Source of the DNA: Cryptosporangium minutisporangium
GTDB taxonomy: Bacteria > Actinomycetota > Actinomycetes > Mycobacteriales > Cryptosporangiaceae
Direction: 5' to 3'
Assembly (NCBI RefSeq): GCF_039536245.1
Contig: NZ_BAAAYN010000023.1
Span: forward strand, 6,875-70,874
DNA: 64,000 nt
Below the pieces are notes generated by a model. That model ran no database searches. It had not been told where the DNA came from and was given only the letters and a program-made list of their open reading frames with translations. The translations under genes were made by a program, and so were the position numbers. Below, one piece after another: positions 17,254 through 32,129 of this stretch (position 1 is the stretch's first letter; each line of letters opens with the position of its first letter).

Positions 17254-17326
17254 CGGCTCAGGCCGGCCGACTCAGGCGGGGCGACTCAGGCGGGGCGACT
17301 CAGGCCGGGCGACTCAGGCCGGGCCG
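17254..17326. repeat. Five-copy 14-bp tandem repeat
   Basis: The core CTCAGGC recurs at 17257, 17271, 17285, 17299 and 17313, exactly 14 bp apart, within a unit close to CTCAGGCGGGGCGA. The last copy contains the stop codon of the LysR gene, and the array fills the gap between two convergent genes. It looks like slippage expansion of an intergenic element. Confidence 0.85.
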
Positions 17327-18258
17327 GTGACCGCCGAACCGCGACGGCGGCGCGAGAGCAGCATCTCCCGGGCGAGCCGGGCGATCTCCCGCGTCGCCGG
17401 TGACAGCACGGTCGACTCCCGCTGGATCAGCGCGATCGTGTCGTAGAGCGGCTCGGCGAACGGCACGGTTCCGACGCCGGCCGGGAAACTGATGCCCTGG
17501 GACACCGCCCGGCACACGAACGTATCGCCGACGCCGCGCGCGACGAGCCCCAGCGCGGCCTCGACGTGCTCCACCTCGATCCGGGCCTCCAGCTTCACCC
17601 CGGCCAGCTGAGCGCGGTCGGAGAGCTGGCGGCGGGTCGGGTCCTTCCAGCCGTAGTGCGCGTCGTAGAGGATCAGCTTGGCCTCGGCCAGCTGCCGGGT
17701 GGTGATCGGTTCGGTCAGGTGGGTGGGATCGGCGCTGGCGTACACCACCTCGTCGCGCAGGAGCGGCCGGACGGTGAGGCCCTCGTCGTCGATCGGCAGC
17801 ACGACCAGGCCCGCTTCCAGATCGCCGGCGGCGACGGACGCGGCGACCTCGACCGAGTTCTGTCCGACCAGTCGCACCCGGACGTTCGGGTACGCGTCAT
17901 GGAACTGCTCGACGAGGTTCCGCAGCAGGTAGTAGTCCGCGTTGCGCAGGACGCCGAACGTGGCCACCCCACCGCCGAGCGAGCGTAAGGAGCGCAGCGC
18001 CTGCTGTCCGCTCTCGGCCGCCGCGACCGCCTGCTCGGCGTAGGGCAGCAGCTCCTCACCGGCCGTGGCCAGGATCAGTCGCCGCGGCCCACGAGTGAAC
18101 AGCGGCAGCCCCTGTTCCTCTTCCAGCCGACGGATCAGCTCGGACACCGAAGCCTGTGACATCTGCAGCGAGGTGGCTGCCGCGGTGAACGAACCGGTAC
18201 GGACTGCCGCAAGAAAGGCGCGCAACTGGTTGAGCGTCACGACCGCGAGGCTAGCCAT
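17314..18258 (-). CDS. LysR-family regulator, probably of the divergent 18-27 kb operon
   Basis: The protein has about 314 residues. I start it at ATG 18258, 8 codons inside the open frame, because the LysR fold begins at VTLNQLRAFLAAVRTGSFT; GTG codons at 18243 and 18240 are alternatives. The HTH is at about 20-45 (AAATSLQMSQASVSELIRRL). The C-terminal co-inducer domain runs from about 95 to 300. It is divergent from the first HisD-like gene, with roughly 70 bp between starts, the standard LysR layout, so I infer control of the nine-gene catabolic operon. The C-terminal residues run into the 14-bp tandem repeat. Confidence 0.87.
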   Translation of the reverse strand: MASLAVVTLNQLRAFLAAVRTGSFTAAATSLQMSQASVSELIRRLEEEQGLPLFTRGPRRLILATAGEELLPYAEQAVAAAESGQQALRSLRSLGGGVATFGVLRNADYYLLRNLVEQFHDAYPNVRVRLVGQNSVEVAASVAAGDLEAGLVVLPIDDEGLTVRPLLRDEVVYASADPTHLTEPITTRQLAEAKLILYDAHYGWKDPTRRQLSDRAQLAGVKLEARIEVEHVEAALGLVARGVGDTFVCRAVSQGISFPAGVGTVPFAEPLYDTIALIQRESTVLSPATREIARLAREMLLSRRRRGSAVTGPA

Positions 18259-18331
18259 AGGGAAACACGAAGGGAAGTACAAGAAACATCAGGCTAGACC
18301 TGCGGCCTGACCGCTCTTACGCTCCCCGTTC

Positions 18332-19645
18332 ATGCAGCTGAATCCCTCTCGCATCGCCCATCTGGCCGGTGCGTACAAGGTCCTCAAGGCGCCCGCCGTC
18401 GATGGCCCCGAAGCGCAGCGCGACCCCGCGGTCATCGCCCGGGTCAGCGAGATGCTCTCGACGATCGAGCGCGGCGGCATGGACGCGGTGCTGCGTTACG
18501 CCCGAGAACTGGACAAGTGGGACAGTCAGGACGTCGAGATCGACCCGGCCGCACCCGCCGGTGACGCGCTCACCCCGGAGCTGCGCGCGGCGCTCGAACT
18601 GGGTCAGCAGCGCACCGCGGCGTTCGCCGCGCTCCAGCGCGAGAAGCTCGTCGACTTCGAGGCCGAGTTGGTGCCGGGGCTGACCGTCGGGCACCGGTAC
18701 ATCCCGATCGCTCGCGTCGGCGCGTACCTGCCTGCCGGGCGGTTCCCGCTGCTCGCCAGCGCGTTCATGACCGTCAACGTGGCCAAAGTGGCCGGCGTCC
18801 CGACAGTGGTCGCCTGCACGCCGCCGCAGCCGGACGGCAAGCCCAACCCCGCCGTTCTGTACGCGGCGCAGATCTCGAAGGCCGACCGGATCTTCTGCCT
18901 CGGCGGCGTCCAGGCGCTGGCCGCGATGGCGTTCGGACTGCTCGGTGAGCTCCCCGTCGACATGCTCGTCGGCGCCGGTAACGCCTACGTCGCCGAAGCG
19001 AAGCGCCAACTCTTCGGCCGGGTTGCGATCGACCTGCTGGCCGGACCGTCCGAGGTCGCCGTGATCGCCGACGAGACAGCGGACCCCGAGCTCGTCGCCG
19101 CCGACCTGCTCGGCCAGGCCGAGCACGGCCCGGACAGCCCAGCCGCGCTCGTCACGACGTCGGAGGAGCTGGCCATCGCGGTCCTCACCGAGGTCGAGCG
19201 TCAGCTGGAGACCCTGGCCACCAACGGCATCGCCGGTCCGGCCTGGCACAACCACGGCAGCGTGGTCTGGGCCCAAGACCGGGCGACCGCGGTCGCGCTG
19301 ATGGACGAGTTCGCGCCCGAGCACCTCGAGGTGCAGACCGCGGACGACGAGTGGTACTGGCGGGAGCTGACCAACTACGGCTCCCTCTTCCTGGGACGCG
19401 CGTCCACGGTGGCCTACTCCGACAAAGGAATGGCGGGCACGAACCACGTCTTACCGACCGCAGGCGGCGCCCGGCACAGCGCCGGACTCTCGGTCTCCCG
19501 GTTCCTGAAGCCGCTCACGTTCCAGCGGGTGGCGTCGGCGGCGACGGCCGACCTGGCGGTCGCGGTCGACGAGATGTCGGCCTACGAAGGCATGGCGGCC
19601 CACCGGGCGACGGCGACCCTCCGCCTCGACCGCTGGTCGGCCTGA
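18332..19645 (+). CDS. Histidinol dehydrogenase-family alcohol dehydrogenase 1 (HpsN-like)
   Basis: The protein has 437 residues, family length. It carries HisD-family landmarks: RVGAYLPAG, GGVQALAAMAFG, GNAYVAEAKRQLFG, AGPSEVAVIAD, the zinc-binding region in GQAEHGPDSP, the catalytic Glu-His in FAPEHLEVQ, GTNHVLPT, and a C-terminal AAHRATATL. Context is wrong for histidine synthesis: no other his gene is nearby and a paralogue lies in the same operon. HisD homologues such as HpsN oxidise other primary alcohols to acids in two NAD-dependent steps (HpsN acts on 2,3-dihydroxypropane sulfonate). I infer a four-electron alcohol oxidation of an unknown substrate. It is the first gene of the operon. 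No clear RBS precedes ATG 18332. Confidence 0.85.
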   Translation: MQLNPSRIAHLAGAYKVLKAPAVDGPEAQRDPAVIARVSEMLSTIERGGMDAVLRYARELDKWDSQDVEIDPAAPAGDALTPELRAALELGQQRTAAFAALQREKLVDFEAELVPGLTVGHRYIPIARVGAYLPAGRFPLLASAFMTVNVAKVAGVPTVVACTPPQPDGKPNPAVLYAAQISKADRIFCLGGVQALAAMAFGLLGELPVDMLVGAGNAYVAEAKRQLFGRVAIDLLAGPSEVAVIADETADPELVAADLLGQAEHGPDSPAALVTTSEELAIAVLTEVERQLETLATNGIAGPAWHNHGSVVWAQDRATAVALMDEFAPEHLEVQTADDEWYWRELTNYGSLFLGRASTVAYSDKGMAGTNHVLPTAGGARHSAGLSVSRFLKPLTFQRVASAATADLAVAVDEMSAYEGMAAHRATATLRLDRWSA

Positions 19646-19694
19646 CCGCGCAGTAGCTCCCCCTCCACTGCACGAGGTCAGGAAGGACGAACTG

Positions 19695-20450
19695 ATGACC
19701 GTCTTGTTCGAGGCCCGCGGCATCACGAAACGGTACGGACATGTTCAGGCCCTCTCCGGTGCCGATTTCCAGGTCGACGCCGGCGAGGTGGTCGCGCTGA
19801 TCGGCGACAACGGCGCCGGGAAGAGCACGCTGGTGAAGTGCCTCTCCGGGGTGCAGAGCCCGGACGAGGGCGAGATCCTGCTCCGCGGCGAGCGGGTGAC
19901 GCTGCAGTCGCCGCTGCACGCTCGCAACCTGGGGATCGAGACCGTCTACCAGGACCTGGCGCTGGCGCCCGAGCTCGGCCCGGCGGAGAACGCCTACATC
20001 GGCCGCGAGCTGCTCAAGCCCGGCCTGCTCGGCAAGCTGGGGGTGCTCGACCGGAAGACGATGCGCACCAAGGCCGCGGAGGCGTTCCGGTCGCTCGGCA
20101 CCGACGTCAAGGATCTCGACGCACCGGTGGCCGCGCTCTCCGGCGGTCAGCGCCAGAGCGTCGCGATCTGCCGGGCGGTGATGTGGGCGAAAGGCATCAT
20201 CTTCATGGACGAGCCCACCGCGGCCCTCGGCGTCCGGCAGACCCGGAACGTCCTGAAGCTGGTCCGCACGGTCGCCGACTCCGGCGTCGCCGTCGTGCTG
20301 ATCAGCCACAACATGACCGAGGTCCTCGAGGTCGCCGACCGGATCGAGGTGCTGCGCCTCGGCAAGCGGGTGGCGCAGCTGCAGGCCTCCGACTGTGACG
20401 TCGAACAGCTGGTGGGCGCCATGACCGGCGCCCTGGACGGGGTGGCGTGA
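19695..20450 (+). CDS. ABC importer ATP-binding subunit (single-domain, ribose/fructose type)
   Basis: The protein has 251 residues with one ABC module. Walker A is GDNGAGKST, the signature LSGGQRQS, Walker B IIFMDEPTAAL and the switch histidine SHNM. A single module instead of the tandem RbsA type is typical of FrcA-like carbohydrate importers. RBS GGAAGGA precedes ATG 19695. The next gene starts on its stop codon (TGATG). With the permease and lipoprotein that follow, it completes an importer embedded in the catabolic operon. Confidence 0.9.
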   Translation: MTVLFEARGITKRYGHVQALSGADFQVDAGEVVALIGDNGAGKSTLVKCLSGVQSPDEGEILLRGERVTLQSPLHARNLGIETVYQDLALAPELGPAENAYIGRELLKPGLLGKLGVLDRKTMRTKAAEAFRSLGTDVKDLDAPVAALSGGQRQSVAICRAVMWAKGIIFMDEPTAALGVRQTRNVLKLVRTVADSGVAVVLISHNMTEVLEVADRIEVLRLGKRVAQLQASDCDVEQLVGAMTGALDGVA

Positions 20451-21484
20451 TGAGCGTGGACACACAAACGACGGCCGCACCGCTGGACGCCGTGGGCCAG
20501 AACGTCTCGCCGCGCAAGCGGGCGCTCACCAGGCTGCTGTCCGCGACACCGTTCTACCTGGCCGGCGTCCTGGTGCTGATGGCGATCGTCTTCTCCAGCC
20601 TGCGGCCGGACGCGTTCCCCACGGTCGCCAACGGCCGCAACATCCTCACCGATGTCAGCATCCTGCTGGTGATGGCGGTCGGTATGACGTACGTGATGGT
20701 CGCGGGCGGCTTCGACCTCTCGATCGGGTCCATCCTGGTGTTCTCCGGCGTGATGGCCGCGAAAACGATGGGCGCGGTCGGCGGCGAGGGCTGGTTGCCG
20801 GTGTTCGCCGGGCTGGGCGTCGCGTTGATCAGCGGCATCGCCTGGGGCCTGTTCAACGGGTTCTGCATCACCCGGCTGCGGGTTCCCGCGCTGATCACGA
20901 CGCTCGGCACGATGGGCGCCGCCCTCGGTATCGCCCGGCTGATCACCGACGGAAACGACGTCCGGACCGTTCCGCTGTCGCTGATCAAACTCTCGGTCGA
21001 CCAGTGGCTCGGCTTGCCTGCCCTGGTCTGGATCTCCGCGGCGATCGCGGTGGTCGGTGGCCTCCACCTCGCCAACACCCGCTTCGGCCGGCACACCTAC
21101 ATCGTCGGGTCGAACGCCGAAGCCGCCCGCCGGGCCGGCATCAACGTCGACCGGCACCTGCTCAAGCTCTACGCGCTCTCCGGCCTGCTGGCCGGCGCCG
21201 CCGGAATGATGTCGCTGACCCGGTTCGCCACCACGACGATCGCCGGCCACACCCAGGACGCACTGCAGGTGATCACCGGGGTGGTGCTCGGCGGGACCAG
21301 CCTGTTCGGCGGTGTCGGAACCATCGTCGGCACGACCGTCGGCATGTTCATCTCCGCCGTGCTCAACAACGGCCTGATCGTCATCGACGTGAAGCCGTTC
21401 TGGCAGGAGGTGGCGATCGGTTTCATCCTGATCGTCGCCGTGTTCATCGACCAGCGTCGCCGCAGCCGCCGCGACCGCGGCTGA
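20450..21484 (+). CDS. ABC importer permease (RbsC/FrcC type)
   Basis: The protein has 344 residues with 8-10 hydrophobic segments. Typical BPD_transp_2 motifs are GMTYVMVAGGFDLSIGSIL near residue 80, CITRLRVPALITTLGTMG, and NAEAARRAGINV with DRHLLKLYALSG. The start ATG 20450 overlaps the preceding stop by one base (TGATG); GTG at 20447 is an alternative. It forms the membrane channel with a homodimer expected. The N-terminal about 40 residues are cytoplasmic and lack a signal peptide. Confidence 0.9.
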   Translation: MSVDTQTTAAPLDAVGQNVSPRKRALTRLLSATPFYLAGVLVLMAIVFSSLRPDAFPTVANGRNILTDVSILLVMAVGMTYVMVAGGFDLSIGSILVFSGVMAAKTMGAVGGEGWLPVFAGLGVALISGIAWGLFNGFCITRLRVPALITTLGTMGAALGIARLITDGNDVRTVPLSLIKLSVDQWLGLPALVWISAAIAVVGGLHLANTRFGRHTYIVGSNAEAARRAGINVDRHLLKLYALSGLLAGAAGMMSLTRFATTTIAGHTQDALQVITGVVLGGTSLFGGVGTIVGTTVGMFISAVLNNGLIVIDVKPFWQEVAIGFILIVAVFIDQRRRSRRDRG

Positions 21485-21526
21485 GTTCCATCAAACCCCC
21501 ACGCACGATCTGAAAGAGGAACGTCG

Positions 21527-22489
21527 ATGCGCAAGGTATTCGTGCTGGCCGCTGTCTTACCACTACTGCTCACCGCATGTGGCGGCTCGGATGACGGAGG
21601 GTCGTCAGGCACCAAGAAGGTCGTCTACATCCAGGGAATGTCCGGCATTCCGTTCTACCAAACGGTCGCGTGTGGAGCGACCGAGCAGGCCAAGAAGGAC
21701 GGCATCGAGTTCTCCTACCAGGGCGCCTCGGAATGGGACGTCGCCAAGCAGACCCAGATCGTCAACGCCGTGGTCGCCGGGAAGCCCGACGCGATCATGA
21801 TCTCGGTGACCGACACCAAGGCGATGATCGGTCCGCTGGCCAGAGCGAAGGCGGCCGGTATCCCGATCATCGGGATCGACGACAACGTCCAGGACGACAG
21901 CATCATGGACACGTTCATCCAGTCCGACAGCATCGAGGGCGGCAAGCTCGCCGGCCGGAAGATGGGCGAGCTGCTCAAGGGCACCGGCGAGGTGATGGCG
22001 CTGAACAACACGCCGGGCACCCCGATCGGCGACGCCCGGGTCGAGGGCTTCAAGCAGGGCATCGCGGAGTTCCCCGGCATCAAGTTCCTCGGTGTCCAGT
22101 ACACCCAGAACGCCACCGCCAAGGCCGCGAACATCGCGTCGACCACCGCCGGGTCGAACAAGAAGCTGTCCGGCATCTTCGGTGTCACCACGAACAACAC
22201 CGAGGGCGCCGTCACCGGCATCCGCGAGGCGGGCAAGACCGGTCAGATCAAGGTCATCGGGTACGACACGTCCGACCCGATCGTCGAGGCCCTGAAGAAC
22301 GGTGGCGCCGACGCCCTCGTCGTCCAGTACCCGTTCGGCGAGGGTAAGCAGGGCATCGTGTCCGCCCAGAAGATCTGGAAGGGCGAGTCGGTGCCGAAGA
22401 AGCAGACGTCGCCGTTCGTGGTGGCGACCAAGGAGAACCTCAACACGCCCGAGGTGCAGGAGTACATCTACAAGATGACCTGCTCGTGA
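21527..22489 (+). CDS. ABC importer substrate-binding lipoprotein (periplasmic binding protein type 1)
   Basis: The protein has 320 residues. A lipoprotein signal peptide ends in LLTAC, with the lipidated Cys about residue 18, followed by a Gly/Asp/Ser linker. The mature part is a type-1 sugar-binding fold: GKPDAIMISVTDTKAMIG, a segment with IPIIGIDDNV, GEVMALNNTPGTPIG, and YDTSDPIVEALKNG. The family binds pentoses, hexoses, polyols and related molecules. RBS GAAAGAGGAA precedes ATG 21527. A stable hairpin follows the stop, which would favour higher levels of this binding protein over the downstream enzymes. Confidence 0.9.
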   Translation: MRKVFVLAAVLPLLLTACGGSDDGGSSGTKKVVYIQGMSGIPFYQTVACGATEQAKKDGIEFSYQGASEWDVAKQTQIVNAVVAGKPDAIMISVTDTKAMIGPLARAKAAGIPIIGIDDNVQDDSIMDTFIQSDSIEGGKLAGRKMGELLKGTGEVMALNNTPGTPIGDARVEGFKQGIAEFPGIKFLGVQYTQNATAKAANIASTTAGSNKKLSGIFGVTTNNTEGAVTGIREAGKTGQIKVIGYDTSDPIVEALKNGGADALVVQYPFGEGKQGIVSAQKIWKGESVPKKQTSPFVVATKENLNTPEVQEYIYKMTCS

Positions 22490-22502
22490 CCCAGGACGCA
22501 CC

Positions 22503-22530
22503 GGAGGGGGCGCCTGGCGGCGCCTCCTCC
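22503..22530 (+). terminator. Intercistronic 12-bp hairpin (attenuator or mRNA-stabilising stem)
   Basis: Positions 22503-22514 pair with 22519-22530 over 12 bp with one G-U pair and a 4-nt loop TGGC. It sits 13 nt after the stop of the binding-protein gene and just before the RBS GGGAGGG of the next gene. No T-run follows, so partial termination or 3'-end protection is more likely than full termination. Confidence 0.7.
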
Positions 22531-22548
22531 GCCCCGGGAGGGAATGCA

Positions 22549-23700
22549 GTGGCAGAAACCGTTCTCATCGGCCAGCACATCGGGGACGGACCCTCGATCC
22601 GCACGATGCCGCGCGACTACTCGATCGCGGTCCGCCCGGCGACCGGCACCGACACCGCGCGGGCCGCCGCCGAGCGCGGCGACCGCCGGCAGTCGATGCG
22701 CGGCTTCGAGGACACGTACGTCGACATCATCGACTACATCGTCCGGATCACCCACCGCATCTGGGAAGACCAGGACGTCGGCTACATCTACGACACGTAC
22801 GCGCCGGGCTGCTTCGTCCACGACGACCACGGGCCGCACTACGGGGTCGAGCGGGTCGTGTCCGGCACGATGCAGAGCATCCACGCCTTTCCCGACACGC
22901 GGTCCTACGCCGACGACGTGATCTGGGCCGGGGACGACGTCCAGGGCTTCGTCACGTCGCACCGGTACATCACCACCGGGCACCACCTGGGCCCGTGGGA
23001 GCACGGCCCGGCCACCGGCCGCCGGGTGAACATGTGGGGCATCGCCAACTGCGTGATCCGTGAAAACGAGATCTTCGAGGAGTGGGTGCTCTACAACATG
23101 TGCTCGAAGCTGGCGCAGCTCGGCATCGACGTCGCCGACGCAGCTCGCCGGTACGGCAACGAGGTCGCCGCCTCTCCGGCTGCGGAGCGCTACCTCGCCG
23201 AGGTCGACCGCCTCTCCGGCGGACGCAAGCCGGAGTACTACCCGTCCCACGACGCCCCGGAGTTCGACCCCGAGCACTTCGCCCGTGCGCTCTTCCACAA
23301 CGTCTACAACCGCCGTGACCTCAGCGCGTTCGAGCGGTCCTACAGCAGCACGGTGCGCTGGAAGGGCACGTCGAACCGCGTCGGCTACGGCCGCGCCGAC
23401 GTCAAGGGCATGGCCCGCAGCCTGATGGCGACCTTTCCCGACCTCGGCATGAAGGTCGACGAGGTGTACTGGATGGGCAACGACGCGGACGGCTACCGGA
23501 TCGTCGTCCGTTGGACCGCGTCCGGCACCCACCGCGGCCACGGCCTGTACGGCGCGCCCACCGGTCGCCGCGTCCACCTCTGGGGCATCTCCCAGCTCTA
23601 CGTGACCGACGGGCAGGTCACGGAGGAGTGGAACCTGTTCAACGAGTTCGACGTGATGGCGCAGATCCTGAGCGACGCACCGTTGCCGATGGTCCCGTGA
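22549..23700 (+). CDS. Protein with two SnoaL/NTF2-like domains
   Basis: The protein has 383 residues. I start it at GTG 22549, 6-7 nt after GGGAGGG; the GTG at 22486 overlaps the upstream stop but would translate the hairpin into low-complexity sequence. Two NTF2-like barrels are visible, about residues 50-185 and 235-370, each with the pattern of an N-terminal helix pair (IVRITHRIWEDQDVGYIYD; ARALFHNVYNRRDLSAFE), then HG/GxGRRV and WGI...EEW. The repeated motifs GRRVNMWGI..EEW and GRRVHLWGI..EEW confirm duplication. The fold includes cyclases, isomerases and hydrolases acting on small ligands. The specific reaction is unknown. It overlaps the next gene by 4 bp. Confidence 0.83.
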   Translation: MAETVLIGQHIGDGPSIRTMPRDYSIAVRPATGTDTARAAAERGDRRQSMRGFEDTYVDIIDYIVRITHRIWEDQDVGYIYDTYAPGCFVHDDHGPHYGVERVVSGTMQSIHAFPDTRSYADDVIWAGDDVQGFVTSHRYITTGHHLGPWEHGPATGRRVNMWGIANCVIRENEIFEEWVLYNMCSKLAQLGIDVADAARRYGNEVAASPAAERYLAEVDRLSGGRKPEYYPSHDAPEFDPEHFARALFHNVYNRRDLSAFERSYSSTVRWKGTSNRVGYGRADVKGMARSLMATFPDLGMKVDEVYWMGNDADGYRIVVRWTASGTHRGHGLYGAPTGRRVHLWGISQLYVTDGQVTEEWNLFNEFDVMAQILSDAPLPMVP

Positions 23701-24503
23701 TCCGAGTGGTGTGCGCGCAGGTCGCCCCGGAGATCGGGGACCTGCGGCACAACGCCGCGATGTCCGCGGCGGCGGTGTCGTCGGCCGCCGCGGACGGTGC
23801 CGACCTGATCGTGCTCCCCGAGCTGGTCACCTCGGGGTACCTGTTCTCGTCCACCGATGAGGCGCGAGCAGCCGCGCTGGACCCCGGTTCCCCGCTCTTG
23901 GCGGCCTGGGGCCGCGCCGCGGGTGACGCGGTCGTCGTGGGCGGCTTCTGCGAAGCCGGCGAGGACTCCGCCGTCTACAACAGCGCCGCGGTCGTCGACC
24001 GCTCCGGGGTGCTGGCCGTCTACCGCAAAACCCACCTGTGGGACGCGGAGCGCACGGTGTTCTCGCCCGGGACCGCCGCTCCCCCGGTCCTCGACACGCG
24101 GGCCGGCCGGATCGGCGTCCTGATCTGCTACGACATGGAGTTCCCGGAGATGACCCGGGGTCTCGCGCTGGCCGGAGCGGACCTCCTCGCAGTGCCGACC
24201 AACTGGCCGCTGGTGCCCCGGCCGTCCGGCGAGCGTCCGCCCGAGGTCGTCACCGCGATGGCCGCAGCCCGGGCGAACCGGGTCTACCTCGCCTGCTGCG
24301 ACCGGACCGGCACCGAGCGCGGCCAGGCCTGGACCGAGGGCACCGCGATCGTCGACCCGGACGGCTGGGTGGTGGCTTCCGCCGGCCCCGGCGTCGCGTC
24401 CGCCTTGGCCTCGTGCGACTTGGGCGCCGCGCGCCGGAAGACGATCTCGGCGGTCAACCACGTCCTGGCGGACCGGCGCACCGACGTCTACGACCAGTTC
24501 TGA
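23697..24503 (+). CDS. Nitrilase-superfamily carbon-nitrogen hydrolase
   Basis: The protein has 268 residues. GTG 23697 overlaps the upstream stop (GTGA). The catalytic triad is readable: Glu in VLPELVTSG, Lys in YRKTHLW and Cys in LICYDMEFPE. The family hydrolyses amides, carbamoyl groups or nitriles, releasing ammonia. Its length and FDTR-like ring motif region (DTRAGRIGVLICYD) place it with the aliphatic amidase/carbamoylase type branch rather than true nitrilases. Its presence in the operon says that a pathway intermediate contains a C-N bond. Confidence 0.88.
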   Translation: MIRVVCAQVAPEIGDLRHNAAMSAAAVSSAAADGADLIVLPELVTSGYLFSSTDEARAAALDPGSPLLAAWGRAAGDAVVVGGFCEAGEDSAVYNSAAVVDRSGVLAVYRKTHLWDAERTVFSPGTAAPPVLDTRAGRIGVLICYDMEFPEMTRGLALAGADLLAVPTNWPLVPRPSGERPPEVVTAMAAARANRVYLACCDRTGTERGQAWTEGTAIVDPDGWVVASAGPGVASALASCDLGAARRKTISAVNHVLADRRTDVYDQF

Positions 24504-24525
24504 TCCTCTCCCTGGGAGATTTCGC

Positions 24526-25851
24526 ATGATCACCTACCTGAAGTCTGTTCCGCCGACGCCGCGCGGTGCGGCGGTCACCGACCCGGCCGTGGCCGCCACG
24601 GTCGCGGCGATCCTGGACGACGTCCGCGAGCGCGGGGACGTCGCCGTCACGGAGTACTCGGCGAAGTTCGACAACTGGTCACCGGAGTCGTTCCGGCTCA
24701 GCTCGTCGGAGATCGACGGGCTGATCCGCAGCCTCCCGCAGCAGGTGATCGACGACATCGAGTTCGTTCAGGCGCAGGTGCGGCGGTTCGCCGAGCACCA
24801 GCGGGCCTCGCTCACCGACTTCGAGGTCGAGACGCTGCCCGGGGTCCGGCTCGGGCAGAAGCAGGTGCCGGTGGCCGCGGTCGGCGCCTACGTTCCCGGT
24901 GGGCGGTACCCGCTCACCGCGTCGGCGCACATGACGATCGTGACCGCGAAGGTCGCGGGGGTTTCGCGGGTCGTGGCCTGTACGCCGCCCATCCGGGGCT
25001 CGATACCGGCGGCCACGGTGGCGGCGATGGCGATGGCGGGCGCCGACGAGATCTACCTGCTCGGCGGCGTGCAGGCGATGGCCGCGATGGCGCTGGGCAC
25101 CCAGACCATCGACCGCGTCGACCTGATCGCCGGGCCGGGCAACGCGTACGTCGCCGAGGCCAAGCGGCGCCTGTTCGGCGAGGTCGGCATCGACCTGTTC
25201 GCGGGGCCGACCGAGATCCTGGTGATCGCGGACGAGCACGCCGACCCGTTCGTCGTCGCGGTGGACCTGCTCAGCCAGGCCGAGCACGGTCCGGACTCGC
25301 CCGCCGTCCTGATCACCACCTCGCGCGACGTGGCCGTGTCGGTCTCCGAGCACGTGGAGCGGATCCTGGTGGACATGCCGACCCGCGACCTGGCCGGGCC
25401 CGCGTGGCGCGACCACGGCCAGATCCTGCTGGTCGACGACCTGGACGAGGCGTACGCGGTCGCCGACTCGTTCGCCAGCGAGCACGTCGAGGTGCTCACC
25501 CGCTCGCCGCGCGAGGCGCTGGAGAAGATGCGGCACTACGGGGCGCTGTTCCTCGGTGAGGGAACCTGCGTGTCCTACGGCGACAAGGTGATCGGCACCA
25601 ACCACGTCCTGCCCACCCGAGGCAACGCCCGCTTCACCGGCGGGCTGTGGGTCGGCAAGTACCTCCGCACGGTGACCTACCAGGAGGTCACCGACTTGAG
25701 CTCCAGCGCGTACCTCGGCGAGGTGTGCGGCCGGGCGTCCCGGGTCGAGCTGTTCGAGGGGCACGCCCGCTCGGGTGACGTCCGGGCCGCCAAGTACGCC
25801 GGCGCGCCGCTGCCCTGGTCCGACCACACGTTCGCGGCCAGCCGTGCCTGA
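24526..25851 (+). CDS. Histidinol dehydrogenase-family alcohol dehydrogenase 2 (HpsN-like)
   Basis: The protein has 441 residues. It reads closer to HpsN than the first paralogue: the EVETLPGVRLGQKQVPV segment, AVGAYVPGGRYPLTASAHM, TAKVAGVSRVVACTPP, GVQAMAAMALGT, GPGNAYVAEAKRRLFGEVG, SQAEHGPDSPA, catalytic FASEHVEV, KVIGTNHVLPT and RFTGGLWVGKYLRTVTYQ. The ending EGHAR replaces the AAHR of paralogue 1. HpsN is known for oxidising (R)-dihydroxypropanesulfonate to sulfolactate; no sulfolyase gene is visible here, so sulfonate use is possible but unproven. RBS GGGAG is before ATG 24526. The SDR gene overlaps its end by 8 bp. Confidence 0.87.
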   Translation: MITYLKSVPPTPRGAAVTDPAVAATVAAILDDVRERGDVAVTEYSAKFDNWSPESFRLSSSEIDGLIRSLPQQVIDDIEFVQAQVRRFAEHQRASLTDFEVETLPGVRLGQKQVPVAAVGAYVPGGRYPLTASAHMTIVTAKVAGVSRVVACTPPIRGSIPAATVAAMAMAGADEIYLLGGVQAMAAMALGTQTIDRVDLIAGPGNAYVAEAKRRLFGEVGIDLFAGPTEILVIADEHADPFVVAVDLLSQAEHGPDSPAVLITTSRDVAVSVSEHVERILVDMPTRDLAGPAWRDHGQILLVDDLDEAYAVADSFASEHVEVLTRSPREALEKMRHYGALFLGEGTCVSYGDKVIGTNHVLPTRGNARFTGGLWVGKYLRTVTYQEVTDLSSSAYLGEVCGRASRVELFEGHARSGDVRAAKYAGAPLPWSDHTFAASRA

Positions 25852-26605
25852 CCGTCTCGTCGCCCGGACCGCGCTGATCACCGGCGCCGGGAACGGTCTC
25901 GGCCGGGCGTTCGCGCTCGCACTCGACGCGCGCGGCGTCCGAACGATCCTCGCGGGGCGTCGGCGCGAGCCGCTGGAGGAGACACGCGCGTTGCTCACCG
26001 ACTCGCGCGTCGCCACCGTGGACGTCGCCTCGCCGGAGTCGGTCGCGGCGCTCGCCGCGGAGCTCGCGGACGAGGAGATCTCGATCCTGGTGAACAACGC
26101 CGGGGTTCCCGGGCCGGTCAAATCGCTGGTCGAGATCGAGCCGGACGAGTGGGACGACGTCTTCGCGGTCAACGTCCGGGGGATCTACCTGGTGTGCCGC
26201 GCGTTCGTGCCGCCGATGGTGGCTCGCGGCGCCGGAGACGTGATCAACCTGGCGTCGATCAGCGGCAAGCGTCCACTGGCAAACCGGACGCCGTACTGCG
26301 CGTCGAAGATGGCGGTGATCGGGCTGTCGACGACGCTCGGGGCCGAGGTGGGACCGGCCGGGGTGCGGGTGAACACGCTGTCGCCGGGGCCGGTGCGCGG
26401 GCCGCGGATGGAGCGCAACTTCCGGCTGGAGGCCGAGCGCAGCGGCATCACGTACGAGGAGGCCGAGCAGAGCTTCACGTCCCGGGCGGCGCTCGGCCGG
26501 ATGGTCGAGGAGTCCGAAGTGGCGGACGCCCTGGTCGCGATGCTCAGCATGACCGGCCTGCACTGCGCCGACATCGACCTGTCCGCGGGCATGGTGGGTC
26601 GATGA
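25844..26605 (+). CDS. Short-chain dehydrogenase/reductase
   Basis: The protein has 253 residues and is a classical SDR. The cofactor loop is TGAGNGLG near residue 12, followed by NNAG, the catalytic Ser in NLASISG, and Tyr/Lys in YCASK. The residue at the end of beta-2 is followed by GRRREP, suggesting NADP(H). GTG 25844 overlaps the HisD-2 stop by 8 bp. In the operon it may oxidise or reduce a secondary alcohol of the same substrate. The final residues (DIDLSAGMVGR) are the usual SDR C-terminus. Confidence 0.9.
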   Translation: MPDRLVARTALITGAGNGLGRAFALALDARGVRTILAGRRREPLEETRALLTDSRVATVDVASPESVAALAAELADEEISILVNNAGVPGPVKSLVEIEPDEWDDVFAVNVRGIYLVCRAFVPPMVARGAGDVINLASISGKRPLANRTPYCASKMAVIGLSTTLGAEVGPAGVRVNTLSPGPVRGPRMERNFRLEAERSGITYEEAEQSFTSRAALGRMVEESEVADALVAMLSMTGLHCADIDLSAGMVGR

Positions 26606-27282
26606 CGCTGGTGCTGCTGCCGGGCATGCTGGGAAGCGCCGACGGCTGGGCCGACGTCGTTTTCCGGCTGGGTTCCGACACTGCGATCCACGTTGGCCGG
26701 ATCGACCAGCACGACACGATCGCCGGCCTCGCCGCCGGTGTCCTCGCCGGCTCGCCGTCGGAGTTCGCGCTCGCCGGGCACTCGCTCGGCGGGATCGTCG
26801 CGCTGGAGATGGTCCGGCAGCAGCCGTCCCGGATCCGCCGCCTCGCGCTGCTCAACAGCAGCGCGAGGCCCCCGACGGACGCCCAGCGAGCGGCCTGGCG
26901 CGGCTGGGACGCGCGGATCGCGGCCGGTGAGTTCGACGCGGTGGCGCGCGAACTGGCGGTGGCCACGCTCCCGGCGTCCCGAGCCGACCTGGTGGAGCGG
27001 AACGCCCGGATGGCGTCCGCGGTGGGCGCCGTCGGCTTCCGACGCCAGCTCGCCGCTCAGCAGTCCCGCACCGACGCCCGGCCCCGGCTCGCCGCGATCA
27101 CCGTCCCGACGGTGGTGATCCGTGGTGACCTGGACCAGGTCAGCCCCGCGCCGATGCAGCACGAGCTCGCCCACGGCATCCCGGACGCGACACTCCACGT
27201 CCTGCCGGAGGTCGGCCACATGTCCCCGCTCGAGGCGCCGGATGCGGTGGTGGCCCTACTCCGGGAGTGGCTGGACCGCTGA
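26602..27282 (+). CDS. Alpha/beta hydrolase (last gene of the nine-gene operon)
   Basis: The protein has 226 residues. ATG 26602 overlaps the SDR stop (ATGA). The nucleophile elbow is GHSLGG, the acid is in RGDLDQVSP and the catalytic histidine in EVGHMSPLE, giving a complete triad. The N-terminus starts directly at the first strand (TLVLLPGMLGSADGW), so it is cytoplasmic. It resembles 3-oxoadipate enol-lactonase-like and MhpC-like hydrolases. In this setting it may open a lactone or ester intermediate, which is inference. Confidence 0.88.
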   Translation: MTLVLLPGMLGSADGWADVVFRLGSDTAIHVGRIDQHDTIAGLAAGVLAGSPSEFALAGHSLGGIVALEMVRQQPSRIRRLALLNSSARPPTDAQRAAWRGWDARIAAGEFDAVARELAVATLPASRADLVERNARMASAVGAVGFRRQLAAQQSRTDARPRLAAITVPTVVIRGDLDQVSPAPMQHELAHGIPDATLHVLPEVGHMSPLEAPDAVVALLREWLDR

Positions 27283-27374: not shown

Positions 27375-27927
27375 TTGACCGGGATAACGCGCCGCTCCGC
27401 GCTGTTCGTCCTCGCCGGTGTCGGAGCAGCGACCGCGGCCGGCGGCGTCGCCTGGGCCAGCCTCCGGGACGACGCGCCCGAGCCCGGATCGACGGCGACG
27501 ATCCGCCCGCGTGCCTGGCGCGCAGGTATCAGCACCGATCAGTTCACGCCGCCGGTCCTCGACCGATCGCGTCGTCGCGATGCTGCAGCGCTCCGATCAG
27601 ACCGTGATCGCCGTCGGGCTGGACGCGGTCTGCGCCGGTAGCGGTTATGGGTTCGTCGTCCTCGACCGCGACTCCGGAGAGGAGCTCTGGTCGACCACCG
27701 AATCGCGCGGAGACCTCGTGCCGGGACCGGTGACGTCGGACGACGCCGTCTTCGTGAGCCAAGGTGCCGGCGAAGACTCCGTCATCCAGGCCTGGCAACT
27801 ACGGGACGGCAAGCCGCTGCGTACCCAGAAGGGCCTCTCGATCGGCGTCCATCTGCAGGTGGTGGAGGAGATGCTGATCGCGTCGACGTTCAGGGAGATC
27901 CACGCCTACCCGCTCCCGCTGAACTGA
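27375..27927 (+). pseudogene. Frameshifted secreted PQQ/beta-propeller-repeat protein
   Basis: TTG at 27375 follows GGAGGTGG and opens a twin-arginine signal peptide (TRRSALFVLAGVGAATAAGG) that continues into WRAGISTDQFTPPVLDR. At about 27555-27570 the coding sense moves to another frame, which reads DRVVAMLQRSDQTVIAVGLD and then the propeller-like FVVLDRDSGEELWST and PGPVTSDDAVFVSQG, ending at 27927. Joining the two frames gives about 184 residues, far shorter than normal PQQ-repeat proteins, so either a single indel hit an already shortened gene or the read has an error. Its 3' end overlaps the LacI gene on the other strand. Confidence 0.7.
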
Positions 27928-28939
27928 CCGCGGAGTCCGGACTCGGCAGCGGGTGCGTGGCGCGCAGTACCGGGGTGACGGGGTGGAGCACCCGTCGCCC
28001 ACCGCCGTCGAAGCCGCCGATCCGCTCCAGCAGCAACGTCACCGCGGTCCGCAGCATGTCGGCGAACGGGACGCGGATCGTGGTCAGGGACAGGATCGGC
28101 CAGGCGGCGCTCTCCAGGTCGTCGAACCCGACCAGCGCCAGGTCGTCCGGCACCCGGACACCGGCCGCGTGCGCCGCGTTCATCGCGCCGATCGCGATGA
28201 TGTCGTTCGCGCAGAACAGCGCGGTGGGTCTGCGTCGCCCCCGGAGCACCGCCGCGAGCGACTCGGCACCGTGGGCCTGCTCGAACGCGCCGGTGCGGAC
28301 CCACGCGTCGGGGAGCTCGACGTCGGCCTCGGCGAGGCGCGTGCGGAACCCCGCGGCGCGGTCCCGGCCGGTGCTGGTGTCCTCCGGGCCGAGGAGCGCG
28401 CCGATGCGCCGGTGTCCGGCGTCCAGCAGGAGCTGCGCGGCGGCGGCTCCTCCGGCACGGTCGTCGGCGACCGCGGCGTCCAGATCGGAGCCTTCGACGT
28501 ACCGGTGGAGGAGCACGGCCGGAACGCCCCGCCTCCGCAGGGTCGCCGGCAACGCCGAGTCGATCCGCGCCGTGCTGACGATGACGCCGTCGACACCACC
28601 GCCGATGAGGTGCTCCTCGACGTCGGCCGGGTCACCGTGGCCGGCCAGCAGCGTGAGCCGGTAGCCGCGCGACGCCAGCTCGTCGTGGAGCCGGCCGACC
28701 AGCAGCGACCAGAGCGGGTTGTCGAGATCGACCACCATCGCGATCCGCTGGGTCGCGCCGGTGGACAGGGCTCGGGCCCGCGCGCTGGGAACGTAGTCGA
28801 GGGCTCGAGCTGCGTCGAGGACCTTGCGGACCGTCTCGGCGCCGATGCTGGGGTCGCGCCGCAACGCGCGGGAGACCGTGGCCTGCGAAACGCCGGCGCG
28901 CTCCGCGACGTCGAAGCTCGTGACCTTGCGCGATCCCAC
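27890..28939 (-). CDS. LacI-family regulator downstream of the aldolase gene
   Basis: The protein has 349 residues. GTG 28939 lies 2 nt after the stop of the aldolase gene. The LacI HTH is at the N-terminus: VTSFDVAERAGVSQATVSRAL, with hinge region LDYVPSARARALSTG. The effector domain follows (IAMVVDLDNPLWSLLVGRL, ALLGPEDTSTGRDRAAGFR, FCANDIIAIGAMNA). It probably represses its own operon and the divergent bicupin through the CG-centred palindromes at 29761-29828. The C-terminal tail overlaps the decayed gene on the opposite strand by 38 bp. Confidence 0.88.
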   Translation of the reverse strand: MGSRKVTSFDVAERAGVSQATVSRALRRDPSIGAETVRKVLDAARALDYVPSARARALSTGATQRIAMVVDLDNPLWSLLVGRLHDELASRGYRLTLLAGHGDPADVEEHLIGGGVDGVIVSTARIDSALPATLRRRGVPAVLLHRYVEGSDLDAAVADDRAGGAAAAQLLLDAGHRRIGALLGPEDTSTGRDRAAGFRTRLAEADVELPDAWVRTGAFEQAHGAESLAAVLRGRRRPTALFCANDIIAIGAMNAAHAAGVRVPDDLALVGFDDLESAAWPILSLTTIRVPFADMLRTAVTLLLERIGGFDGGGRRVLHPVTPVLRATHPLPSPDSAVSSAGAGRRGSP

Positions 28940-28941
28940 GA

Positions 28942-29739
28942 TCAGTACCCCGTCCGGGCGCCGGAGGGCGCGGACCCGGCCCCTCCGCGGGCCGCGGTCA
29001 GCGCGGCGGCGGCTCCGGCGCGCAGTAGCGCAGCGTCGTTGCCGGGCGTCACCAGGTCGTACCCGAGGGAGACGAGATGCGCCGCCACCGTGCCGTCGGC
29101 GCAGAAGCTGCCCGCGTAGATCCCGGCGTGGTGCGCCGCCTCCACGACCCGTTCCCAGGCCCGCTCGACCTCCGCGGGCGCCGGCACCTGCCCCGGCCGG
29201 ACGCCGAGCGCCAGCGCGAGGTCGTTCGGCCCCACGTAGAGGCCGTCCAGGCCGGGGGTGGCCGCGATCTCTTCGACCGCGTCGAGCGCCTCCGCCGACT
29301 CGATCATCGCCCACGTCATCACCGTCGCGTTCGCACCGTCGACGTAGCCCGGACCGCCGTAGAGGGTGGCGCGTGCCGGGCCGAAGCTCCGCCGACCGAC
29401 CGGTGGGTACCGGCACGCCGCGACGAACGCCGCCGCGTCGACCGGGCTGTCGATCGCCGGGCAGACGATGCCGTACGCGCCGGCGTCGAGCAGCTTTCCG
29501 ATGACCGCGGGGTCGTGGCTCGGGCAGCGCGCGAACGGCTCGGCCGGCCCCGCGCTCACGGCCTGGATCAGCCGGATCGCACCGTCGAGGCCGAACATGC
29601 CGTGCTGAAGGTCCACGGTCACCGCGTTGAAGCCCGCGTACGACAGCGTCTCGGCGAGGTAAGGACTGTCGCCGGAGACCCACGCATTGACCACGGTCTT
29701 CCCGCTTGCGAGCAGCGCCCGCACGGCACTCGTCCGCAT
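28942..29739 (-). CDS. HpcH/HpaI-family class II aldolase
   Basis: The protein has 265 residues. Landmarks are the catalytic His in VTVDLQHGMFG, GAYGIVCPAIDSPVDAAAFV, SFGPARATLYGG, the metal-binding Glu in AMIESAEALD and Asp in YVGPNDLALALG. The family cleaves 4-hydroxy-2-oxo acids to pyruvate (or a related 2-keto acid) plus an aldehyde with Mg or Mn. Sugar-acid members act on 2-keto-3-deoxy-rhamnonate or galactarate intermediates. It shares an operon with the LacI gene and a divergent promoter with a bicupin protein, so it probably acts on a sugar-acid or aromatic-ring-derived keto acid. Confidence 0.88.
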   Translation of the reverse strand: MRTSAVRALLASGKTVVNAWVSGDSPYLAETLSYAGFNAVTVDLQHGMFGLDGAIRLIQAVSAGPAEPFARCPSHDPAVIGKLLDAGAYGIVCPAIDSPVDAAAFVAACRYPPVGRRSFGPARATLYGGPGYVDGANATVMTWAMIESAEALDAVEEIAATPGLDGLYVGPNDLALALGVRPGQVPAPAEVERAWERVVEAAHHAGIYAGSFCADGTVAAHLVSLGYDLVTPGNDAALLRAGAAAALTAARGGAGSAPSGARTGY

Positions 29740-29760
29740 GGCTCACCTTTCCCGGTCGAC

Positions 29761-29828
29761 TACGTATGCACAGACTAGACGATTGACAACCTGAAACACG
29801 CTGGCCTGTACTATGCATACGTATACGC
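29761..29828. promoter_or_regulatory. Paired LacI-type operator half-palindromes and candidate promoter
   Basis: TACGTATGCA at 29761-29770 is the exact reverse complement of TGCATACGTA at 29814-29823, 53 bp apart. The second site extends to a CG-centred palindrome, GCATACGTATACGC (29815-29828). CG-centred palindromes are typical of LacI operators. A perfect -35 TTGACA lies at 29783-29788, with a weak -10-like TACTAT at 29809-29814 but a long 20-nt spacer. Two operators flanking the promoter fit looping or autoregulation by the LacI gene. Confidence 0.72.
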
Positions 29829-29848
29829 AACCGCTGAGAGGAAGCACC

Positions 29849-30967
29849 ATGTCGACCGATCGCGAGGTCACCGACGCCGAGCTGGAGCGCCGAACCATTC
29901 TGCGGAGGAACCTGGTCCCGGACACGGCCGCGTTCCTGGACACGAAGATTCCCGGCAGCCAAGCGAAGATCAACTACCCGTTGATCGGACCAGGTGTCTC
30001 CGAGAACGGTGAGCAGATCGTGCCGGTCGACGAGCCGCACGGGTTCAACCTGGGTGGCGCCGTCATGCCCGCCGACACGGTGAACAACCTCCACCTCCAC
30101 TTCACCGCCGAGGTCTTCCTGTGCTTCGCCGGCTCGTGGACCTTCCGCTGGGGTGTCGACGGGAAGGACGGCGAGGCGACGGTCAGCGACGGGGACGTCA
30201 TCTCGATCCCGACCTGGATCTTCCGCGGCTTCACCAGCGAGTCGGACGACGCCTGGCTCTACACCGCACTGGGTCGGGACGAGAGCGGTGGCCTCCTCTG
30301 GGCCCCGTCGGTGATCTCCGCGGCGGCGAAGACCGGGATGTTCCTCAGCACCGATCACCGCCTCATCGAGGTGGAGCCCGGAACGGTTCCCGAGGGCGTC
30401 GACCTGGTCCAGCCGATGTCGGAGCAGGACCTGGCTGGCCTGCGTCGAGTCTCGGTCGAGGAGATGCGTACCCGCTTGACTCGCCCCGGGGACCTGGTGT
30501 GGCGACCGGATGCGCTGCTCGACTCCGGACTGCCCGGCGGCGGCGCCGAACTCGCGCTCGTGATCGGCTATGGCCTGACCGAGCACCGCGACCAGGCCCC
30601 GCGGCTCGCTGATCCGCACGGCTTCTCGCTCGCCTGGTTACGCGCCGCGCCCGAAGCCGGGGTCAATCGGCACCGGATCACCGAGCCGCAGGTGCTGATC
30701 GCTAAGTCGGGCCGGTGGCGGGTCACGCTGAACGCGGAGAACCCGGTCACCGCCGAGCTCGGGCCGTTCGACACGCTGTCGGTGCCGGCCGGAGCCTGGC
30801 GACGGTTCGAGAGCATCGGGTCGGAGGCCGGGCAGCTCGCGGTACTGACCAGCGGAGACGGCCGGACGCGACTGGACTGGGACCCGGCCGTCGTCGCGGC
30901 CGCGGGCGAGCGGAACGTCGCGATCGACGCGAACGGCTACGTGGCGCCGGCCCATCTGGTCCGCTGA
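29849..30967 (+). CDS. Two-domain cupin protein (gentisate-dioxygenase-like fold)
   Basis: The protein has 372 residues. ATG 29849 follows GAGAGGA; a longer start at 29813 would lie in the operator. The first cupin (about residues 70-160) has the metal motif region VNNLHLHFTAEVFLCFAGS and the second motif DGDVISIPTWIFRGF. The second cupin (about 240-350) has VNRHRITEPQVLIAKSG and PFDTLSVPAGAWRRFES. The first domain keeps histidines suitable for metal binding; the second has fewer, as in many bicupins. It is divergent from the aldolase/LacI operon, so it should act in the same pathway, possibly as a ring-opening dioxygenase or sugar-acid isomerase. Confidence 0.8.
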   Translation: MSTDREVTDAELERRTILRRNLVPDTAAFLDTKIPGSQAKINYPLIGPGVSENGEQIVPVDEPHGFNLGGAVMPADTVNNLHLHFTAEVFLCFAGSWTFRWGVDGKDGEATVSDGDVISIPTWIFRGFTSESDDAWLYTALGRDESGGLLWAPSVISAAAKTGMFLSTDHRLIEVEPGTVPEGVDLVQPMSEQDLAGLRRVSVEEMRTRLTRPGDLVWRPDALLDSGLPGGGAELALVIGYGLTEHRDQAPRLADPHGFSLAWLRAAPEAGVNRHRITEPQVLIAKSGRWRVTLNAENPVTAELGPFDTLSVPAGAWRRFESIGSEAGQLAVLTSGDGRTRLDWDPAVVAAAGERNVAIDANGYVAPAHLVR

Positions 30968-30980
30968 CCCTCACGGCTGC

Positions 30981-31991
30981 TCACGTCGTGCCCCGCACCA
31001 GCAGCTTCGGGGTGAGCACCTCCGGTCGAGGCAGTTCGCCGACGAGCAGCTGGTCCAGCTGGCGGACGGCGAGTTCGCCGATCCGCCGTTTGTCGAGGTG
31101 GATCGTGGTGAGCGGCGGATCCAGCAGCTCGCCGATGCTCAAACCGTCGTGACCGACCAGCGCGCACTCCGTCGGCACGGCCACGCCGAGCCGGCGGGCC
31201 GCCTGGAACGCTCCGATCGCGACGAGGTCGTTGAACGCCAGAACGGCGGTCAACTCGGGCCGGGCGGCGCGCAGCGTTTCGAACGCGCGACCGCCGCCGG
31301 CCATCGACTGCTCGCCGACGATGATGCACTCCTCGTCGACCGGCAACCCGTGGGTGTGCGCGAGGTCGAGGAGCGTCCGGCGGCGCACGTCCGGGTGACC
31401 GGTGGTGACGCAGTCGATCAGGCCGATGTGCCGGTGCCCTCGTTCGACCAGGTGCCCCAGGCCCGCCCGCACACCCGTCTCGGTATCGACGCGCACCAGC
31501 GCGTAGGTCTCCGAGTCCAGCCCCCGGTCGACGATGACCAGCGGCACGCCCGCGACGTACGGCTCCAGCTCGGCGTCGGTGTGGCTGACGTAGCCGACGA
31601 GCGCGTCGACCTGCTGGCCGAGTGAGCGCAGCAACGCCAGCTCGCGGGCGCGGTCGTTCTCCGTGCTGGCGACGACTACCTGCCACTCCCGGCCGTCGGC
31701 CGCCTCGATCACTCCGGCGATGAACTCGGGGTAGAACGGGTTCACCACGTCCGGGACGATCAGGCCGATCGTGACCACGTCGGGCCGCACGAGTCCGCGT
31801 CCGAACCGGCTGGGGCGGTAGCGCAACTGCCGGGCGACCTCGAGGACCCGGCGCTGGGTCTCCGGGTCGATCTCCCCTTTGCTGTTGATGGCGCGGGAAA
31901 CCGTCTGATGCGAAACGCCCGCCGCCCGGGCGACGTCCCTGAGCGTCACCCGCCTGCCTGCCGGCGCTGACGTCGTGCCGTTCTTCTCCAC
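30981..31991 (-). CDS. LacI-family regulator 2
   Basis: The protein is about 336 residues from GTG 31991, 4 nt after AGGAG; the open frame starts further upstream at 32102 but that part does not resemble LacI proteins. The HTH is VTLRDVARAAGVSHQTVSRA with the hinge LRYRPSRFGRGL. The effector domain follows (IGLIVPDVVNPFYPEFIAGV; LVGHDGLSIGELLDPPLTTI). It is transcribed toward the bicupin gene (convergent, 13 nt between stops). A perfect palindrome lies 75-100 bp upstream, between this gene and the small gene at 32130, pointing to autoregulation. Confidence 0.87.
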   Translation of the reverse strand: MEKNGTTSAPAGRRVTLRDVARAAGVSHQTVSRAINSKGEIDPETQRRVLEVARQLRYRPSRFGRGLVRPDVVTIGLIVPDVVNPFYPEFIAGVIEAADGREWQVVVASTENDRARELALLRSLGQQVDALVGYVSHTDAELEPYVAGVPLVIVDRGLDSETYALVRVDTETGVRAGLGHLVERGHRHIGLIDCVTTGHPDVRRRTLLDLAHTHGLPVDEECIIVGEQSMAGGGRAFETLRAARPELTAVLAFNDLVAIGAFQAARRLGVAVPTECALVGHDGLSIGELLDPPLTTIHLDKRRIGELAVRQLDQLLVGELPRPEVLTPKLLVRGTT

Positions 31992-32065
31992 CACGCTCCT
32001 ACTCAACCAGAACCCGCTGGCGCCGGAGCTTGCCGGTTGACGCCGACCAACTCCTGAGGCACGCT

Positions 32066-32091
32066 CGTTACCGTTCACGTTAACGGTAACG
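32066..32091. promoter_or_regulatory. LacI-type operator, perfect 10-bp inverted repeat
   Basis: CGTTACCGTT (32066-32075) and AACGGTAACG (32082-32091) are exact reverse complements separated by CACGTT. The length and A/T-rich GTTA/TAAC outer parts are typical of LacI-family sites. It lies between the divergent LacI gene 2 and the small gene at 32130. Confidence 0.8.
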
Positions 32092-32129
32092 GCGTCGACC
32101 AAGACGTCGTGGAACGATGGAGGAACGTC

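Follow-up and report, generated by a model that had tools for sequence, protein, structure and literature searches.

The subject of this study is a gene cluster in a 64,000-nucleotide stretch of the Cryptosporangium minutisporangium genome (contig NZ_BAAAYN010000023.1; the whole stretch is called the window hereafter), which comprises about 13 linked genes with one conserved DNA switch and looks like an undescribed import and oxidation pathway for a sugar-like amide compound. From our point of view, the locus is probably a catabolic cluster under LacI and LysR control that serves the use of a polar, polyhydroxylated compound bearing an amide group. At the level of sequence, the protein families, the conserved active-site residues, the co-inheritance of the genes and a shared operator can be regarded as established. 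In the open-access literature, we could not find a description of the cluster or the pathway, and the main text of a survey of LacI regulons does not mention HisD (PMC4052901).

A preliminary description of the window had proposed a nine-gene operon with a divergent LysR gene. Domain scans (Pfam and NCBIfam) confirmed all of these genes, their positions and the families that had been named (Table 1), but the proposed extent was too short: since a LacI regulator, an HpcH/HpaI aldolase and a cupin (27890–30967) recur in the clusters of relatives, they have to be added.

Relationship of the two HisD-type proteins to HisD and HpsN

Two genes of the cluster encode proteins of the histidinol dehydrogenase family, here termed HisD1 and HisD2. 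Their solved relatives are, by rank, HpsN and an (R)-2,3-dihydroxypropane-1-sulfonate (DHPS) dehydrogenase, followed by HisD, with HpsN as the best match in the PDB for HisD1 (8v35, E = 8.9e-109) as well as for HisD2 (E = 7.1e-112). The two proteins share 45% identity with each other and 48% with HpsN, compared to 36–38% with canonical HisD (36% for E. coli HisD). In a tree of 98 sequences, of which 21 are canonical HisD proteins from actinobacteria only, the canonical clade separates with 100% support from HisD1, HisD2 and HpsN, which form three separate lineages beside it.

The residues that bind zinc or take part in catalysis (Q, H, E, H, D, H, H) are intact in both proteins, as is the Lys353 of HpsN. 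At the position of His126, which binds the sulfonate and is conserved among HpsN homologues (PMC11382572), HisD1 and HisD2 carry a Leu (GRFPL and GRYPL, respectively) and thus lack the HpsN motif GRY-A/S-H. Throughout the cluster members, Leu, Ile or Met occupies this position, and His was found only in true HpsN-type controls. Because of their separate lineages, the retained residues and the exchange of His126, we regard HisD1 and HisD2 as a putative third kind of HisD-family protein that combines an HpsN-like scaffold with a HisD-like pocket position. Beyond fold and residues, they have a LacI regulator and a neighbouring short-chain dehydrogenase/reductase (SDR) in common with HpsN, the (R)-DHPS 3-dehydrogenase of Cupriavidus pinatubonensis, but they are accompanied by SnoaL, amidase, cupin and aldolase genes and by no sulfolyase. 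With L-histidinol dehydrogenase they share the PF00815 fold, the Zn ligands and the Leu at the His126 position, but in both the catalytic Asp is followed by Lys and not by Tyr, and they fall outside the canonical clade and are encoded outside the his operon of a genome that has a separate HisD.

The canonical hisD sits in a hisDCBHA operon on another contig (C26) of the same genome, for which reason the reading of HisD1 or HisD2 as a spare histidine gene was rejected; the earlier statement that no his genes are near is correct. The preliminary description had seen its catabolic interpretation at risk if a paralogue complemented the histidine pathway, if both paralogues fell inside true HisD, or if the neighbourhood were not conserved; with a complete his operon that has its own HisD, two paralogues outside the canonical clade and a neighbourhood conserved across phyla (see below), that interpretation stands in these respects and is, overall, partly supported. 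A histidinol dehydrogenase annotation does not always mark a histidine enzyme, and the two proteins of this annotation within what looks like one coherent pathway must do another job than histidine making. Hundreds of plasmid records contain proteins annotated in this way (380 with a match).

In Emticicia and Hymenobacter (L040, L042), HisD relatives are found beside glycosidases and an FAD monooxygenase, with pca genes in Hymenobacter; this branch of the dehydrogenase has probably been put to a separate use there, in aromatic metabolism.

Conservation across phyla

Relatives were collected via the double SnoaL protein, which yielded 28 loci, mostly from Actinomycetota and also from Dormibacterota and Chloroflexota; the surrounding reading frames were clustered and families were counted over 27 loci. 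The families that recur around these loci are those of the nine genes and, in addition, the cupin (20 of 27), the LacI regulator and the HpcH/HpaI aldolase. The entire set is present in unchanged order in Paractinoplanes (L004); with its genes rearranged, the set recurs in Actinomycetota, Deinococcota, Bacillota, Pseudomonadota, Chloroflexota and Dormibacterota. Since the same order is kept in the former and the same families are reshuffled in other phyla, the grouping is not due to chance. The putative pathway thereby spans at least six phyla. The module also resides on annotated plasmids of Pantoea, Klebsiella, Sinorhizobium, Deinococcus, Priestia, Novosphingobium, Octadecabacter, Marinovum, Roseibium, Ruegeria, Martelella and Alloyangia.

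Between lineages, non-homologous proteins replace each other, namely (i) the C-N hydrolase and an amidase-signature amidase, (ii) the HpcH/HpaI and an RraA aldolase, and (iii) CUT2, CUT1 and major facilitator superfamily (MFS) importers. Such replacement by unrelated families speaks for a need of the pathway for amide hydrolysis, pyruvate-type aldol cleavage and uptake, and it supports the earlier proposal of a catabolic pathway with an amide-hydrolysing step. Among 396 actinobacterial genomes, HisD1 was found in 19 (E<=1e-90). Apart from the source genome itself, two of them reach 60% identity or more (L053, L054) and have SnoaL, C-N hydrolase and SDR genes close by; the more distant ones mostly do not. 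The cupin occurs in 2 of 395 other actinobacterial genomes, both times within such a cluster.

In Microbacteriaceae, a GH13 alpha-glucosidase-like gene adjoins the cluster (L028, 2139–4244; L029, 2089–3792; L005); it may serve to free a glucoside substrate, or its position may be coincidental.

A shared operator

In relatives from several phyla, the palindrome TGCATACGTATGCA is located 5' of the cupin, LacI, importer and HisD2 genes and sometimes of the HisD1 or SnoaL genes; Deinococcus sp. QL22 has two copies that match it perfectly. With up to 2 mismatches it occurs in 25 of the 27 loci, compared to a mean of 0.68 and a maximum of 7 loci for 179 permuted palindromes. The LacI proteins of the clusters share the recognition helix GVSQ[A/S/P]TVSR, from which a second LacI protein of the window (30981–32102) differs. 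What characterises a LacI regulon, a regulator with a conserved recognition helix and a conserved palindrome at several promoters, is hence found here, and the cluster is apparently co-regulated. The exact sequence TGCATACGTATRC occurs a single time in the 9.23-Mb genome, 5' of the cupin, and its position just ahead of this gene suggests 29849 as the start. We could not find an operator upstream of HisD1 in the window, which is why this gene is assigned to the LysR regulator. The conserved operator further provides a marker for finding all members of the regulon.

Minimal regulons that consist of a LacI gene and a HisD2-type gene with the same operator or the variant TGCATTCGAATGCA were observed as well (L069, 9584–10963; L070, 9594–11090; L041, 1323–2636; L051; L052), and the dehydrogenase therefore seems to work also with few partners. 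An MFS transporter is present in L069, L070 and L052, and in L070 an SDR and a 3-hydroxyacyl-CoA-dehydrogenase-like gene adjoin the HisD2-type gene.

Core and side-arm modules

The second HisD and an amide hydrolase occur both in 17 loci and neither in 5, with the amidase only in 2 and the HisD only in 0 (P 0.0005, or P 0.005 with one row per lineage, neither value being fully corrected for relatedness). A Klebsiella plasmid carries just LacI, HisD2, SDR, MFS, hydrolase, aldolase and cupin genes. Given that gain and loss of the second HisD nearly coincide with those of the amidase, and given the gene content of this plasmid, the cluster is best read as a putative core of HisD2, SDR, cupin, hydrolase and aldolase with a side-arm module of HisD1 and amidase. 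This co-variation narrows the chemistry of the substrate.

A MetE-like protein (PF01717, cobalamin-independent methionine synthase II) is found mostly in clusters without the side-arm module (Octadecabacter, Marinovum, Ruegeria and one actinobacterial metagenome-assembled genome), but also in clusters of Chloroflexota and Dormibacterota that have this module. The protein might act as a demethylase or serve another step. Copies lie at L037 22790–23911, L031 135–1283, L020 14339–15628, L068 18759–19900, L114 13994–15115 and L116 15066–16190.

Proposed pathway

From these data, the following route can be imagined. The sugar-type ABC importer would take the compound up, the SnoaL protein would split or isomerise a conjugate, HisD1 would oxidise to the carboxylate a CH2OH group whose neighbouring carbon bears O or N, and the C-N hydrolase would hydrolyse an amide on the same side arm. 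HisD and HpsN catalyse a four-electron oxidation of a CH2OH group beside a Zn-bound amino or hydroxyl group (PMC11382572), and the same four-electron conversion of CH2OH to COOH would be expected of HisD1. HisD2 would convert a second CH(OH)-CH2OH or C(OH)-CH2OH group into an alpha-hydroxy acid; two HisD-type enzymes with distinct partners imply two oxidisable groups of the CH2OH type. Through the SDR, the cupin (with a 2-His-1-Glu site) and the alpha/beta hydrolase, the ring or chain could then become a 4-hydroxy-2-oxo acid, from which the HpcH/HpaI aldolase, or RraA in other lineages, would release pyruvate and a second oxo compound. The HpcH/HpaI and RraA families have the retro-aldol cleavage of 4-hydroxy-2-oxo acids to pyruvate in common, and this shared chemistry suggests the type of the last intermediate. 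LacI would act on TGCATACGTATGCA and be released by an intermediate, and LysR would act on the HisD1 side.

The importer has the permease (PF02653) and binding-protein (PF13407) families of CUT2 sugar importers such as RbsABC, AraFGH and FrcABC, but its ATPase is a single domain of 251 amino acids that covers positions 1–245 of the AraG/RbsA models (~500 amino acids), whereas CUT2 ATPases are usually duplicated and about twice as long; in other lineages CUT1 or MFS importers take its place. For the SnoaL protein, AlphaFold2 predicts two SnoaL-type domains (mean predicted local distance difference test score 80.5). It may be a hydrolase or isomerase, and the alpha/beta hydrolase an esterase, lactonase or C-C hydrolase. 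The catalytic motifs of the C-N hydrolase (E-K-C), the alpha/beta hydrolase (S-D-H), the SDR (YxxxK) and the aldolase are intact. The latter shares its family (PF03328) and active-site motifs (catalytic His, Arg and metal ligands) with the class II pyruvate aldolases HpaI, GarL and SwHKA, but stays below every equivalog cut-off (4.2e-35 against GarL; HpaI also matched). The cupin has the two-cupin fold of oxalate decarboxylase and quercetinase-type bicupins (Z ~20, root mean square deviation 3–6 Å over 226–286 residues), but in 15 of 15 aligned sequences, all with HxHxxxE in the N-terminal domain, Arg replaces the His that is the fourth ligand, and the C-terminal cupin is degenerate or missing. 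The active domain is likely the N-terminal one, since HxHxxxE is conserved there and Deinococcus, Priestia and Dormibacterota have single-domain versions of the protein. Foldseek searches with the cupin and the SnoaL protein returned general fold matches without a specific function.

Several points weigh against the proposed pathway. In which order the steps run, and what the SnoaL protein, SDR, cupin and hydrolase do, is guessed from the family. The 27 loci were gathered by one gene, so that the co-occurrence of the others is conditional on SnoaL, and related strains were counted separately. One HisD is missing in the stretch seen of Priestia, Sinorhizobium and Roseibium. Lastly, the operator in the window has 2 mismatches, and within the window an equal number of sites arose in 9 of 100 shuffles, which is not significant, so that the case for the operator rests on comparison.

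Mycosporines as candidate substrates

It is a conjecture from chemistry, and in our opinion quite unlikely to be correct, that the substrates are mycosporines, the UV screens of fungi, lichens and cyanobacteria, typically mycosporine-glutaminol or its glucoside. Mycosporine-glutaminol combines glutaminol, which is an amino alcohol and carries a primary amide, with a C(OH)-CH2OH group on the ring and a 2-methoxy-enaminone, and would as such suit every enzyme of the cluster. The SnoaL protein would free glutaminol from the cyclohexenone; this amino alcohol, which resembles histidinol, would be oxidised by HisD1 to glutamine, from which the amidase would produce glutamate. On the ring, HisD2 would convert C(OH)-CH2OH to the carboxylate, the cupin would cut the 2-methoxy-enediol and the hydrolase would take off the resulting methyl ester. 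The product would be 4-carboxy-4-hydroxy-2-oxoadipate, to be cleaved into pyruvate and oxaloacetate; this compound is a known substrate type of RraA (LigK/ProA) aldolases.

In fungal mycosporines, a cyclohexenone is bound to either an amino acid or an amino alcohol (PMC10057719), and mycosporine-glutaminol is also present in terrestrial cyanobacteria (PMC3083659). The marine forms of the cluster (sea ice, algal associate, coral) have no HisD1 and amidase and possess the MetE-like protein. To our knowledge, algal mycosporine-like amino acids have no glutaminol, and these forms would hence suit such compounds. We found no gene set for mycosporine breakdown in the open-access literature; if the conjecture is true, the cluster would be a candidate breakdown route for a very common natural sunscreen.

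Alternative explanations

A possible, if unlikely, explanation is a sugar pathway of the aldaric-acid type, in which the SDR would oxidise an aldose to a lactone that is then hydrolysed, the cupin or SnoaL protein would dehydrate or isomerise, and a 2-keto-3-deoxy-aldarate would undergo GarL-like cleavage, with HisD2 oxidising a terminal CH(OH)CH2OH group and the amidase acting on a uronamide or similar group. Sugar-type importers, the LacI regulator and the aldolase scores against GarL and HpaI would fit such a route, as would the PdxA and hydroxyacid dehydrogenases of a Mesorhizobium relative with the same operator. However, a sugar-acid dehydratase is not a constant member, and such a route would explain neither the co-variation of amide hydrolase and second HisD nor the presence of one to four SnoaL proteins.

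Catabolism of an aromatic, arylglycerol-type compound with the cupin as ring-cleaving dioxygenase appears clearly improbable. It could draw on the pca and FAD-monooxygenase genes beside the Hymenobacter and Emticicia HisD relatives and on a sub-threshold match (22 bits) of a marine cupin to 3-hydroxyanthranilate dioxygenase, but those neighbourhoods have no SnoaL, cupin, amidase or aldolase, which points to a different use of the dehydrogenase. Further, the cluster has no ring-hydroxylating enzyme, and its importers are of the sugar type.

Still more improbable is sulfonate (DHPS) catabolism, with HisD1 and HisD2 as HpsN enzymes of different stereo-preference and the SDR as HpsO, even though HpsN is the closest solved relative of both, Lys353 (also sulfonate-binding) is retained and the HisD-SDR pair resembles hpsN-hpsO. 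Since His126 is Leu in both proteins, use of DHPS is unlikely, which makes the caution of the preliminary description on this point firmer. HpsN moreover forms a lineage of its own, the genome has no Xsc match above the curated cut-off, and the one SuyB-like protein that it encodes scores as a galactarate dehydratase type (357 bits versus a cut-off of 731); no hpsP homologue was seen in the cluster, HpsP and CuyA not having been searched genome-wide. On the grounds of His126, the tree and the lack of Xsc/SuyB evidence, sulfonate use was rejected.

Secondary-metabolite biosynthesis with SnoaL as polyketide cyclase is hardly credible and was rejected. It has the SnoaL fold in its favour, but neither a polyketide synthase nor a carrier protein came up when the cluster was scanned with Pfam and NCBIfam. 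An importer, control by LacI and LysR, an aldolase and an amidase speak against it as well, as does the occurrence of the set on enteric and Bacillus-group plasmids.

Organisation of the locus

Table 1. Features of the cluster, with positions in the window.
Feature	Position	Strand	Remarks
LysR-family regulator	17314..18282	-	Pfam HTH_1, LysR_substrate; 49 bp from divergent HisD1
HisD1, HpsN/HisD-like zinc NAD dehydrogenase (putative side-arm module)	18332..19645	+	PF00815, E 1.6e-126
CUT2-type sugar importer ATPase, 251 amino acids	19695..20450	+	PF00005
CUT2-type permease	20447..21484	+	PF02653; AraH/RbsC-like
Ribose-type substrate-binding lipoprotein	21527..22489	+	PF13407; best PDB match 5dkv, E 5.4e-47
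Double SnoaL/NTF2-fold protein	22486..23700	+	PF07366 twice
C-N hydrolase (amidase; putative side-arm module)	23697..24503	+	PF00795; E-K-C triad; start from sequence
HisD2, HpsN/HisD-like dehydrogenase (putative core module)	24526..25851	+	PF00815, E 2.8e-139
SDR dehydrogenase	25844..26605	+	PF00106/PF13561; TGxxxGxG, YxxxK; start estimated
Alpha/beta hydrolase, PcaD-like	26602..27282	+	PF00561/PF12697; S-D-H motifs
LacI-family regulator of the cluster, helix GVSQATVSRALR	27890..28939	-	Orthologous recognition helix in most relatives' loci
HpcH/HpaI pyruvate aldolase	28942..29739	-	PF03328; HpaI/GarL models; PDB hydroxyketoacid aldolase 6r62/7o5i
Weak second operator copy CGACTACGTATGCA	29757..29770	.	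3 mismatches to TGCATACGTATGCA
LacI-type operator TGCATACGTATACG, between aldolase and cupin	29814..29827	.	2 mismatches to TGCATACGTATGCA; conserved in relatives
Bicupin	29849..30967	+	PF07883; HxHxxxE in N-terminal domain; start moved downstream of operator

Starts were revised for the C-N hydrolase (~23697, GTGA overlap), the SDR (~25844) and the hydrolase (26602, ATGA overlap). Overlaps of 4 bp join ATPase and permease, binding protein and SnoaL, SnoaL and amidase (if GTG 23697 is the start), and SDR and hydrolase. The divergent arrangement of LysR and HisD1 was found again in many relatives. Between the hydrolase and LacI genes, a short reading frame with WD/PQQ-propeller-like repeats (27418–27927) is perhaps a gene remnant. 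Elsewhere in the window (42765–45627), an IlvD/Edd dehydratase adjoins a zinc-type alcohol dehydrogenase frame, possibly as a separate sugar-acid operon.

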